From Flavobacteriaceae bacterium D16 (lineage in GTDB: Bacteria > Bacteroidota > Bacteroidia > Flavobacteriales > Flavobacteriaceae): a DNA stretch of 64,000 nt. The stretch is from NCBI GenBank assembly GCA_021295155.1, contig JAJTJC010000036.1:434001-498000 (forward strand), given 5' to 3'. Positions 41,412 to 54,276 of the stretch are shown piece after piece. Numbering within the stretch: position 1 is the stretch's first letter; each line of letters opens with the position of its first letter. Made by a program: the position numbers and the translations under genes. Under the pieces are notes generated by a model that worked only from the letters and a program-made list of their open reading frames with translations, had not been told where the DNA came from and made no database searches.

Positions 41412-43310
41412 ATGAGCGATTCCATTAAACACGAATGCGGAATTTCACTGATAAGGTTGCTCAAACCCCTTGAATACTACAAGGAAAAGTACGGTTCCAT
41501 CTTCTATGGTGTCAATAAAATGTACCTGATGATGGAGAAACAGCACAATCGTGGACAGGATGGTGCGGGTTTCGCCAGCCTTAAACTCGATATGTCTCCG
41601 GGAGAGCGATACATGAGCAGAGTAAGGTCTGCACAACCCCAACCCATTCTGGATATTTTCGACCAGATAAACAATAGGATAAACACTGTATTGAGTGATT
41701 ATCCTGAGATCGTAGACGATGTTGCTGCTCAGAAAAAGAAAATCCCCTATGTTGGGGAGGTCCTTCTCGGACATGTGCGCTATGGTACTTTTGGTAAGAA
41801 TAGTATAGAAAGTGTTCACCCTTTCCTTCGCCAGAATAACTGGATGCATCGTAACCTCATCGTTGCAGGGAATTTCAACATGACCAACGTCAGTGAACTT
41901 TTCGACAACCTCGTGCAGCTTGGTCAGCATCCCAAAGAAATGGCAGATACGGTTACCGTAATGGAAAAGATCGGGCATTTTCTTGATGATGCAGTAGCCA
42001 AATTGTACAAACAAATTAAAAAACAGGGATACAACAAACTTGAGGCTTCTGCCCTTATTGCTGAACGTCTGCAGGTTGCCAAGATTCTAAGGAAGGCTTC
42101 GAAAAACTGGGATGGTGGTTACGCCATGGCTGGAATGTTGGGACATGGTGATGCCTTTGTTTTAAGAGATCCGTCTGGAATTAGGCCAGCATACTATTAC
42201 CAAAATGACGAGGTTGTGGTGGTGGCCTCGGAAAGACCTGCCATCCAGACTGTTTTTAATACCACTTATGATGAGGTATCTGAATTACCTCCGGGTAATG
42301 CACTGATCATCAAAAAAGCCGGGCAAGTTTCAGTTAATGAAATCCTTCCTCCTCTGGAACGCAAAGCATGTTCTTTTGAACGAATTTACTTTTCAAGAGG
42401 AAATGATAAGGAGATCTATGAGGAGCGAAAAGCACTTGGGAAGTTGATTTTTCCCAAAGTACTGAAAGCTGTTGAGGAAGACCTTAGAAATACTGTTTTC
42501 TCCTACATACCCAATACGGCCGAAACCTCATTCCTCGGTATGATTAAAGAGGCCCAGGGCTACCTGAATAATAAGAAGCAGGAACAAATCCTTGCACTAG
42601 GTTCAGAATTAAGTCCGGACACACTACGGAATATCCTCAGGGTACGGCCCAGAATTGAAAAAGTGGCGATTAAAGATGCCAAACTCAGGACATTCATTAC
42701 TCAGGACAGCAGCAGAGACGATCTGGTTGCACATGTTTATGATATATCCTATGGGTCTGTAAATCCTCAGGATAACCTGGTTATTATCGACGACAGTATT
42801 GTACGCGGGACTACGTTAAAAAAGAGTATCCTGGGTATTCTGGATCGGCTGGAACCTAAAAGAATCGTTGTAGTATCTTCGGCTCCGCAGATTCGATATC
42901 CCGATTGCTATGGCATAGACATGGCGAAGCTGGAGGACTTTATCGCATTTCGAGCAGCACTTGCACTTCACGAAGATCGGAGCTCACTGGAGATTGTGGA
43001 GGAAGTCTATCAAAAATGTAAGCAAGGCGTTGAAAACAATTCCAGTGAAGTCCAGAATCATGTGAAGGAGTTTTATGCACCTTTTACGGCCGAGGAAATC
43101 TCGCTGAAAATCGGACAACTTTTAAGTCCGGATACTATCAAGGCTGAAGTTCAGATCATATATCAAACCATAGAAAGTCTTCATCAGGCCTGTCCTGGAA
43201 ACCTGGGTGATTGGTATTTCACAGGAAACTATCCTACGCCTGGTGGTAATCGGGTTGTCAATCGCGCATTTATAAATTTCTTCGAGGGTAAGAACCAACG
43301 CGCTTACTGA
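41412..43310 (+). CDS. purF: Amidophosphoribosyltransferase-like protein (extended PurF form)
   Basis: A class II glutamine amidotransferase fused to a phosphoribosyltransferase. Cys9 in KHECGISLI would become the N-terminal nucleophile, and the PRPP-binding motif is VIIDDSIVRGTTL. At 632 residues it is about 125 longer than the E. coli enzyme, with extra segments near residues 60-110 and at the C-terminus. The flexible PRTase loop is also divergent (FITQDSSRDDLVAHVYDISY instead of the usual basic motif). It could be the main PurF or a paralogue; the extended form is known from Bacteroidota. The next feature downstream is the small RNA cluster. Confidence 0.85.
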   Translation: MSDSIKHECGISLIRLLKPLEYYKEKYGSIFYGVNKMYLMMEKQHNRGQDGAGFASLKLDMSPGERYMSRVRSAQPQPILDIFDQINNRINTVLSDYPEIVDDVAAQKKKIPYVGEVLLGHVRYGTFGKNSIESVHPFLRQNNWMHRNLIVAGNFNMTNVSELFDNLVQLGQHPKEMADTVTVMEKIGHFLDDAVAKLYKQIKKQGYNKLEASALIAERLQVAKILRKASKNWDGGYAMAGMLGHGDAFVLRDPSGIRPAYYYQNDEVVVVASERPAIQTVFNTTYDEVSELPPGNALIIKKAGQVSVNEILPPLERKACSFERIYFSRGNDKEIYEERKALGKLIFPKVLKAVEEDLRNTVFSYIPNTAETSFLGMIKEAQGYLNNKKQEQILALGSELSPDTLRNILRVRPRIEKVAIKDAKLRTFITQDSSRDDLVAHVYDISYGSVNPQDNLVIIDDSIVRGTTLKKSILGILDRLEPKRIVVVSSAPQIRYPDCYGIDMAKLEDFIAFRAALALHEDRSSLEIVEEVYQKCKQGVENNSSEVQNHVKEFYAPFTAEEISLKIGQLLSPDTIKAEVQIIYQTIESLHQACPGNLGDWYFTGNYPTPGGNRVVNRAFINFFEGKNQRAY

Positions 43311-43413
43311 TAAAAAATTCGATCAAATACACAAAACTGTGCATTTCATCGATAAAATAGTCCTTTTGTCGGATTAATGGTTTCCCGGGAATAAACCCAT
43401 TTACTTTTAAACT

Positions 43414-43487
43414 TGCCATAGCATAAGTAGGTTAAGTTCATGGTAAGATTTGGGGCAAAAAAGGTGGAGACTTCTCCACCTTTTTTA
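43414..43487 (+). ncRNA. Tandem small RNA candidate, copy 1
   Basis: The 39-nt core at 43416-43454 begins CCATAGCATAAGTAGG and ends GGTAAGATTTGGG. An intrinsic terminator follows: GGTGGAG (43463-43469) and CTCCACC (43474-43480) around ACTT, extended by A-tract/T-tract pairs. The predicted transcript is about 73 nt. A weak -7-like TACTTTTA lies 6 nt before the core. It shares 39 of 39 core bases with copy 2. The function is unknown; the core is free of a conserved reading frame. Confidence 0.72.
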
Positions 43488-43672
43488 TTTTCAGTTACTA
43501 CAAAAGCCCTTTATCAGTCTGCATTTAGATCATCTGCCTTTTAACGCTCATCACGGGGTATATTAATGTACGACTATTCCTCAATCTTTATAAGGGTTCC
43601 TTGCAGTAATGGTAGTTCATCCAATTAAAGCGGAGTTTGTCCAAAACCTTTTACGTGGGCAGATTGTTCCTT

Positions 43673-43680
43673 TATTTTTG
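43673..43680 (+). promoter_or_regulatory. Predicted -7 box of small RNA copy 2
   Basis: TATTTTTG matches TAnnTTTG exactly and ends 5 nt before the conserved core, placing the start of transcription at about 43684. The same offset is seen for weaker boxes at copy 1 (TACTTTTA) and copy 3 (TAATTTAG). Confidence 0.5.
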
Positions 43681-43683
43681 AAG

Positions 43684-43756
43684 AACCATAGCATAAGTAG
43701 GTTAAGTTCATGGTAAGATTTGGGGAAAAAAGGCGGGATAACTCTCGCCTTTTTTA
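43684..43756 (+). ncRNA. Tandem small RNA candidate, copy 2
   Basis: The core at 43686-43724 is identical to copy 1. The terminator stem differs in sequence but keeps pairing: GGCGGGA (43732-43738) with TCTCGCC (43743-43749) around TAAC, including one G-U pair, then T6. The predicted transcript is about 72 nt. It has the best promoter of the three copies. The flanking spacer has no clear similarity to those of the other copies, which argues against a recent plain duplication. Confidence 0.75.
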
Positions 43757-43889
43757 TTTCTGACAATCAATTCTTTAGCAGTCATAGTCCCAGAAAAAGC
43801 ACCTCACATCCTCATCATCATCTTGTAGGAATTGGATTAAAAAAGCCTGATTTTTTTTGTTATTTCACACAATACCAGTAATTTAGTAT

Positions 43890-43964
43890 TGCCATAGCAT
43901 AAGTAGGTTAAGTTTATGGTAAGATTTGGGACGAAAAGGGTAGAGACTTCTCTACCCTTTTCTA
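43890..43964 (+). ncRNA. Tandem small RNA candidate, copy 3
   Basis: The core at 43892-43930 differs from the others at one base (C to T before ATGG), which extends a possible CCATA/TATGG pairing by one pair. The terminator stem is GGGTAGAG (43938-43945) with CTCTACCC (43950-43957) around ACTT. A promoter-like TTG (43857-43859), a 19-nt spacer and TAATTTAG (43879-43886) lie upstream. The sod terminator begins 3 nt downstream. Confidence 0.74.
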
Positions 43965-43966
43965 TT

Positions 43967-44000
43967 AAAAAAGCGCGACCTGAATAGATCGCGCTTTTTT
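43967..44000. terminator. Bidirectional terminator between small RNA copy 3 and sod
   Basis: AAAAAAGCGCGA and TCGCGCTTTTTT are perfect complements around a 10-nt loop, giving a T-run on both strands. It lies 20 nt after the sod stop on the minus strand and backs up the copy 3 terminator on the plus strand. Confidence 0.85.
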
Positions 44001-44019
44001 AATTTATTTGAGAAAACTA

Positions 44020-44628
44020 CTATTTATTGGCTGCGAAGTTCTCTGCTACTTTATTCCAGTTAATCACACTATAAAATTCTTTGATATAATCTGGACGCCT
44101 GTTTTGATAATGCAAATAATAAGCGTGTTCCCAGACGTCAATCCCCAGAATGGGATATCCTCCACAACCTACGCCTGGCATTAAGGGGTTATCCTGGTTA
44201 GGGGTAGAACATATATCCAGTTTGCCCCCTGGATGCACACAAAGCCATGCCCAGCCCGAACCAAATCTAGTCCCGGCGGCACTACTGAATTGCTCCTTAA
44301 AATTATCGAATGAACCGAAAGATTCATTAATTGCTGCTGCAAGATCGCCTTCAGGATTTCCTCCTCCATCAGGAGACATGATTTCCCAGAACAATACATG
44401 GTTGTAATAACCCCCGCCATTGTTCCTTAGCGCTTTGTTGTCCATATCCATATTCTTAAGGATTTCCTCTATGGACTGACTGGCAAGATCGGATCCATCT
44501 ATAGCAGCATTCAATTTTGTAGTATACCCATTGTGGTGCTTGGTATGGTGGATCTCCATAGTCCGGGCATCAATATGCGGTTCTAAAGCGTCATATGCAT
44601 AGGGTAAATTAGGTAATTGAAAAGCCAT
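44020..44628 (-). CDS. Superoxide dismutase (Fe/Mn family, Mn-like)
   Basis: Disproportionates superoxide. From the ATG at 44628 ([20 protein letters not shown]) the protein has 202 residues with metal ligands His27, His77, Asp164 and His168 ([23 protein letters not shown]). Gln145 in [10 protein letters not shown] is in the position typical of Mn enzymes, so Mn-dependent or cambialistic activity is likely; the metal cannot be proved from sequence. The ATG at 44652 would add eight non-conserved residues. There is no signal peptide, so it is cytosolic. Confidence 0.93.
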
Positions 44629-44663
44629 TTTATCGCGTTTTATAGTTAACAATTTAATTGTCT

Positions 44664-54199: not shown

Positions 54200-54276
<77 letters not shown>

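Follow-up and report, generated by a model that had tools for sequence, protein, structure and literature searches.

The stretch of DNA analysed here, called the window (64,000 nucleotides; G000:C11:434001-498000 of a 3.22 Mb genome), contains an array of three sibling genes that, in our reading, specify trans-acting small RNAs (sRNAs) repressing the translation of exported proteins by occlusion of the start codon. We infer that the RNAs are transcribed and act as repressors, and give this reading a probability of about 0.78. Each copy shows its own promoter and intrinsic terminator and no conserved reading frame, and complementarity to the mRNA starts of two protein families exceeds that of shuffled controls. 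The original prediction of a family of small trans-acting RNAs is supported by the conservation of core, hairpin and terminator, by the fixed place of the array and by the two paired target families.

Sequence comparison places the three cores, of 39 nt each, at 43416-43454, 43686-43724 and 43892-43930. Copy 1 has the same core as copy 2, and copy 3 departs from it by a single change, C to T, which confirms the one differing base with which the array had been described. The own genome has three matches at E <= 0.001, all within the array. The array is flanked by two genes:

41412..43310, plus strand: PurF-like amidophosphoribosyltransferase, which usually flanks the array on the left; its best NCBIfam match is purF (TIGR01134)
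44020..44652, minus strand: superoxide dismutase (Fe/Mn), sodA, the usual convergent right neighbour

The PurF-like protein scores 125 bits against TIGR01134, and because this is far under the equivalog cut-off of 350 its exact role may depart from that of classical PurF. An inverted repeat with U-runs on either side is situated 3' of copy 3 (43966-44003) and is probably the terminator of the convergent sodA. The only Rfam match over the gathering score in the window is a tRNA gene (54203-54276, minus strand).

Each unit is built of a -7 box, a 5' hairpin, an unpaired stretch GAUUUGGG(G) and a terminator, and the predicted sRNAs are about 73-75 nt long. The RNA elements are as follows, the hairpins and terminators being obtained by folding:

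43414..43445, plus strand: 5' hairpin of copy 1, apical loop GUAGG at 43427-43431
43685..43714, plus strand: 5' hairpin of copy 2
43890..43921, plus strand: 5' hairpin of copy 3 (TTTATGG variant)
43423..43432, plus strand: putative seed A of copy 1, AUAAGUAGGU (hairpin loop and flank), with its complement ACCTACTT in target start regions
43447..43455, plus strand: putative seed B of copy 1, GAUUUGGGG, unpaired on folding, with its complement CCCAAATC in target start regions
43717..43725, plus strand: putative seed B of copy 2, unpaired on folding, with its complement in target starts
43923..43930, plus strand: putative seed B of copy 3, GAUUUGGG, followed by ACG in place of G
43457..43486, plus strand: intrinsic terminator of copy 1
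43726..43755, plus strand: intrinsic terminator of copy 2
43933..43962, plus strand: intrinsic terminator of copy 3

Folded alone, the 5' hairpins reach -6.2 to -7.3 kcal/mol, and all three present GUAGG as the apical loop. The terminator stems differ in sequence among the copies and keep their pairing, as had been claimed for the array, and across all loci examined 365 of the 366 distinct copies fold a terminator hairpin; their distinct stems number 137, and a U-run was scored in 351 copies. There are 72 variants of the 5' hairpin, which differ in the stem, and nearly all of them fold with the GUAGG region in the loop; the search behind this count itself demanded GTAGGT, and the copies for it and for a 120-row alignment were chosen by patterns that include the loop. 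When stretches were selected by the tail only, GTAGG was found within the preceding 30 nt in 323 of 334. Ten of the other 11 lie outside arrays and are apparent chance matches, while the last (L233) is a real, divergent copy (29.8 bits) without the GUAGG loop. RNAalifold found no base pair with two-sided change in the 120-row alignment, so its consistent folding and the divergent variants are the main evidence for the hairpin.

Upstream of the cores, the following candidate promoter elements are read:

43365..43373, plus strand: upstream box of copy 1, TTTGTCGGA, 37 nt before the TA of the -7 box; putative activator site
43402..43409, plus strand: -7 box of copy 1, TACTTTTA (consensus TAnnTTTG)
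43636..43646, plus strand: upstream box of copy 2, TTTGTCCAAAA, 37 nt before the TA of the -7 box
43673..43680, plus strand: -7 box of copy 2, TATTTTTG (consensus TAnnTTTG)
43857..43886, plus strand: promoter of copy 3, with TTG at 43857-43859, spacer TTATTTCACACAATACCAG at 43860-43878 and -7 box TAATTTAG at 43879-43886, unlike those of copies 1 and 2

The -7 consensus TAnnTTTG is described in PMC9723704. The -7-like boxes stand 5-6 nt 5' of the core in the three copies, in agreement with the original prediction, and in 236 of 307 aligned promoters of the copy 1/2 type, 5 nt separate a TAnnTTTG-like box from the core. The spacers between the copies had been called unrelated; this fails for copies 1 and 2, which have TTTGTC(G/C)(G/A)A in common 37 nt before the -7 TA. 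The region upstream of copy 3 is different, and it is conserved among last copies. The TTTGTC(G/C)(G/A)A box recurs in Flavobacteriaceae, and a consensus TTnRTCnAAAa recurs at the same 37-nt distance from the -7 box among these 307 promoters, which exclude those of the last-copy type. A regular expression for the upstream box matched in the first 18 nt of 159 of these 307 promoters and in 1.3% of random 14-nt windows, a comparison of unequal window lengths. Copies of the last type, represented by 47 distinct upstream regions (GGGACG/GGGATG variant), carry CTTTgTTATTTCnCACAATACCAGTAATTTAG in place of the TTTGTC-type box. In many arrays (43857-43886 here; L005-L050) the last copy also has a strongly kept spacer between -33 and -7, TTATTTCnCACAATACCAG; this spacer has the appearance of an operator. 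The difference in promoter type between copies 1 and 2, with the TTTGTC box, and copy 3, without it, suggests two regulatory inputs to one output.

The RNA is widespread in the family. A 74-nt query gave BLAST matches in 162 of 199 sampled Flavobacteriaceae genomes (161 of 198 by genus), and together with the three matches in the own genome this search of genome and relatives, which the original prediction had proposed, shows that the core does not recur by chance. A covariance model of 120 copies found matches in 32 of 246 order-level genomes, all of the same family, in a run with stricter filters and with 40 genomes of the own family among the rows listed; it found matches in 6 of 295 class-level genomes, again in the own family alone and under stricter filters. 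Among 80 named loci retained by PurF similarity, which are largely from Flavobacteriaceae (Eudoraea, Zobellia, Maribacter, Flavobacterium), copies follow purF in 66: one copy in 21, two in 21, three in 13, four in 9 and five in 2. The usual place of the array is about 100 bp after purF, and where SodA was found (65 named loci) the copies lie between purF and the convergent sodA in 60. The 14 named loci without copies by the array test include Psychroflexus, Myroides, Capnocytophaga, Polaribacter and one short contig (L178). That contig holds a divergent candidate of low score (22.4 bits, E 0.024); judged by eye, one U-A stem pair is replaced there by C-G (CCAC/GTGG). Core copies were also observed away from the purF-sodA array, at G120:C3:381179-381243 and in L042 (G094:C4), which is without purF or sodA, and part of the sRNA core lies outside the purF-sodA array on the minus strand of L162 near 2423. 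In Allomuricauda zhangzhouensis (L174:6029-8597), about 2.5 kb, apparently an insertion, separates array copies 1 and 2.

Candidate targets were sought by pairing the core with predicted start regions of the own genome, 377 in number; they come from 464 kb, made up of the window and 20 further stretches of 20 kb each. The energies are from duplexfold, which disregards the folding of either strand. The best score, -30.0 kcal/mol, fell on the start of a 109-aa protein with a signal-like N-terminus and a T9SS sorting domain. Over all 377 starts the pairing was not clearly better than with 60 mononucleotide-shuffled cores, and the -30.0 hit therefore needed independent proof. The exported starts of the own genome showed no excess pairing as a group (a difference reached by 16 of 100 shuffles); the top eight of them stand out (2 of 100 shuffles), with a mean that includes the -30 hit.

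Homologs of the 109-aa protein from Flavobacteriaceae form target family 1, with 21 start regions kept from 30 loci. Most of these 21 starts repeat the site GATCCCAAATCAAT..ATG..CTACTT in full or in large part. Their mean energy is -30.6 kcal/mol, against -19.3 kcal/mol for 200 dinucleotide-shuffled cores (sd 1.18, lowest -23.6), none of which was as low; in another window around the starts, the values are -30.6 and -18.9 kcal/mol (sd 1.3), with 0 of 120 dinucleotide shuffles as low. Taken singly, 13 of the 21 sites beat all 200 shuffles, and the weaker ones include L285 (reached by 34 of 200 shuffles), L270 and L288 (11 each) and L279 (9). The exact complement of seed B, CCCAAATC, is present in 16 of the 21 starts and the loop complement ACCTACTT in 4. 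Five small T9SS-tail homologs without the site (L289, L290, L292, L293, L296) give -12.4 to -17.5; L291, L294, L295 and L297 were not counted, their matches being apparent sorting domains within longer proteins. In the own genome two small T9SS-tail proteins stand in tandem (L124:8092-8891, C11:288092-288891), and the sRNA site is on the downstream one. The starts of the upstream tandem paralogs at the same loci (n=20) have no pairing signal (z +0.5).

A pattern uniting the seed B complement with the start codon, CCCAAATC-N-ATG-N-TACTT, was searched over 299 Flavobacteriaceae genomes and returned mostly the sRNA genes themselves, read backwards. All 52 non-self matches among those listed were counted, including 20 that had first been chosen visually for their ATGA-like starts. 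A fixed rule places 20 of the 52 at gene starts (L370 being omitted as a duplicate of L410), and most of the remaining non-self matches lie inside genes. An exported-type N-terminus was called heuristically for 15 of the 20 proteins; L368, L408 and L409 are members of target family 1 and hence not independent of it. The starts at L358, L359, L364 and L373 were assigned by eye and stand outside the 20 because the rule excluded them. The looser pattern TCCCAAATC-N-ATG, without the TACTT part, was dropped as too unspecific.

The starts at L359 and L373 belong to one family (target family 2), a 252-aa exported-type protein with no Pfam match over the cut-off and with homologs in 62 of 199 genomes. 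The 30 best loci average -23.8 kcal/mol against -17.4 kcal/mol (sd 1.22; 0 of 120 shuffles as low), and 20 diverged starts, which we selected from 33 further listed matches, average -22.7 against -17.2 (0 of 150 shuffles as low). The loop complement ACCTACTT occurs in 12 of the 30 starts, by eye often just past the -7 box, and CCCAAATC in 3 of 30. Exact seed complements are rare in the diverged members (CCCAAATC in 3 of 20, ACCTACTT in 0 of 20). At L445 the 5' region mirrors nearly the whole core (-40.9). The family 2 ortholog of the own genome does not pair (-11.8), and one of the same genus gives -17.6. Neither target family occurs as widely as the sRNA does, and the analysis yielded no target common to all Flavobacteriaceae. 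As for other starts, those of purF (z -1.1, n=40) and of sodA (14 of 80 shuffles as low, n=38) were rejected as targets, and SusC as a general target, an idea taken from the FopS model, gave a weak result (32 starts, -14.9 against -13.8, sd 0.68; 7 of 150 shuffles as low).

These observations fit a mechanism in which each of the three sRNA genes would use its own promoter and terminator, and each RNA would offer two seeds: AUAAGUAGGU in the apical loop and, after the hairpin, the unpaired GAUUUGGG(G). On certain mRNAs that encode exported proteins, both seeds are predicted to pair with the short 5' UTR, the start codon and the codons that follow it; the pairing would block ribosome entry, and translation would be repressed. 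That the ribosome is kept off is suggested by the position of the sites, which cover 5' UTR, start and first codons, and by the promoter-like box close upstream. The original prediction had taken the core as the seed, and its segment AAGTAGGTTAAG indeed overlaps the loop seed, but the second seed, GATTTGGG(G), is equally important. To our knowledge, trans-acting sRNAs are poorly known in Bacteroidota, and most of the work concerns Bacteroides. The RNA of the array recurs in the majority of genera sampled from a large bacterial family, and it has a near-invariant core, a fixed place and named candidate targets. It makes testable whether bacteria without Shine-Dalgarno sequences (PMC9723704) control secreted proteins by start-codon occlusion, and also which protein, if any, replaces Hfq or RbpB.

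Several other explanations of the array have to be weighed against this one. Instead of sRNA genes, the copies could be DNA repeats, or signals for 3' processing that serve the purF-like gene, as their usual place shortly after purF might suggest; we regard this as very improbable, given that a promoter-like box and a terminator accompany nearly every copy, even at distances above 2 kb from purF, and that some copies lie elsewhere (on G120:C3, and in L042 without either neighbour). A core recurring in relatives as duplicated DNA without terminators, the outcome that had been named as speaking against sRNA genes, is contradicted by the terminators that fold in 365 of the 366 copies. Still less credible is a short peptide encoded by the core: an ATG is present in all three copies (ATG GTA AGA TTT GGG..., MVRFG), and the coding reading was rejected because an indel between genera (GGTAAGATTT versus GGTAGATTT) shifts the frame while the RNA sequence is otherwise unchanged; the codons past the core also diverge. 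The RNAs might instead act mainly as a protein sponge or effector, with the GUAGG-loop hairpin binding an RNA-binding protein and the tandem copies setting the dose, as CsrB/RsmZ RNAs act on CsrA. A core more constant than pairing with drifting targets would require, a loop kept while the stem varies and tandem copies with separate promoters would all suit such a role, which we nevertheless consider improbable, since the pairing of loop and tail with two target families far exceeds that of shuffled cores and of matched controls, and the loop complement recurs in target starts. Repression by pairing at start codons is the reading that we retain.

A further rival concerns descent. The array could be a genuine, if remote, branch of the FopS/GibS family of Bacteroides, its R1 seed having shifted in part into the hairpin, and the stretch UUCAUGGUA..AGAUUU in common with the FopS consensus is in its favour, as are similar size, copy number, terminator and start-codon targeting (PMC11697453). 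The FopS model RF04319, however, needs 56 bits to reach its gathering score and gives at best 20.2 bits, for copy 1, with 16.9 for copy 2 and 16.3 for copy 3; the alignment, which runs through UUCAUGGUA..AGAUUU, is equalled by 49 of 5000 shuffled cores and involves bases partly paired in the 5' hairpin. Across 296 genomes of the phylum RF04319 gave three matches, none in Flavobacteriaceae, with filters that lose some weak matches. The protein partner of FopS is RbpB, of RRM_1 type, and a search of the own genome at E <= 0.001 gave no RRM_1 protein, with Bacteroides ihuae positive as the control; the SusC starts are weak, as given above. On balance we find a common branch unlikely. A FopS-like RNA of 43.9 bits, under the cut-off, was observed in L056 (G290, another family of the same order), and since it lies outside Bacteroides it may widen the FopS range. 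The sole GibS match listed (43964-44050, minus strand) lies outside the three RNAs. The most far-reaching version of our reading, that of a master post-transcriptional brake on the secretome of Flavobacteriaceae, a single near-invariant RNA directed at start codons from a fixed tandem array with its two types of promoter, with a wider regulon of many exported and T9SS proteins, an ancestor in common with FopS/GibS and an ancient origin of start-codon-pairing sibling sRNAs as a trait of the phylum, is in our view rather unlikely.

In Rfam release 15, no family was over the threshold on the three RNAs, whether by gathering score or on extending to E 10. Hits to STnc40, sraA and Thr_leader were rejected; they look like terminator matches and several occur on both strands. 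A match to the Flavo-1 motif, entertained in the original prediction, was not borne out: Flavo-1 is absent from all three Rfam scans, including the two in which matches as weak as E 10 were listed. The Flavo-1 motif is widespread in Flavobacteriaceae, a trait that the array RNA has in common with it. The transcriptome of F. psychrophilum lists sRNAs Rfp1-89 (PMC9723704), and RNA-seq of F. columnare gave unnamed candidate sRNAs (PMC5395568); one of these may be the array RNA. In openly available articles, taken without their supplements, no description of a purF-sodA sRNA or of its core was recognised. Because no Rfam family is over threshold, FopS is far below its cut-off and no description was recognised, we rate the array RNA as a new sRNA family that would work like FopS.

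Among known systems, the Rfp sRNAs resemble the array RNA in being flavobacterial, in some being kept outside the species and in being thought to pair; Rfp18 differs in that its third stem-loop is described as the pairing region and metalloproteases as its targets. GibS (RF04182, Bacteroides) carries the R1 seed and pairs at translation starts, and its model is longer, at 142 positions. In Bacteroides thetaiotaomicron FopS pairs at the start of susC and keeps the ribosome off (PMC11697453). FopS and the array both have RNAs of about 65-75 nt, several siblings, a canonical promoter, a terminator and the stretch UUCAUGGUA..AGAUUU, as well as seed pairing, predicted here, near the start codons of genes for exported or outer-membrane proteins. 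The FopS-type trait of multicopy siblings of similar size with a terminator is present in the array, with 1-5 copies in 66 of the 80 named loci. In contrast to FopS, which occurs at many loci, the array is tandem and mostly fixed between purF and sodA; it offers two candidate seeds, one of them in a hairpin loop; and for its predicted targets it has a small T9SS protein and an exported-type protein of 252 aa, with SusC paired weakly.
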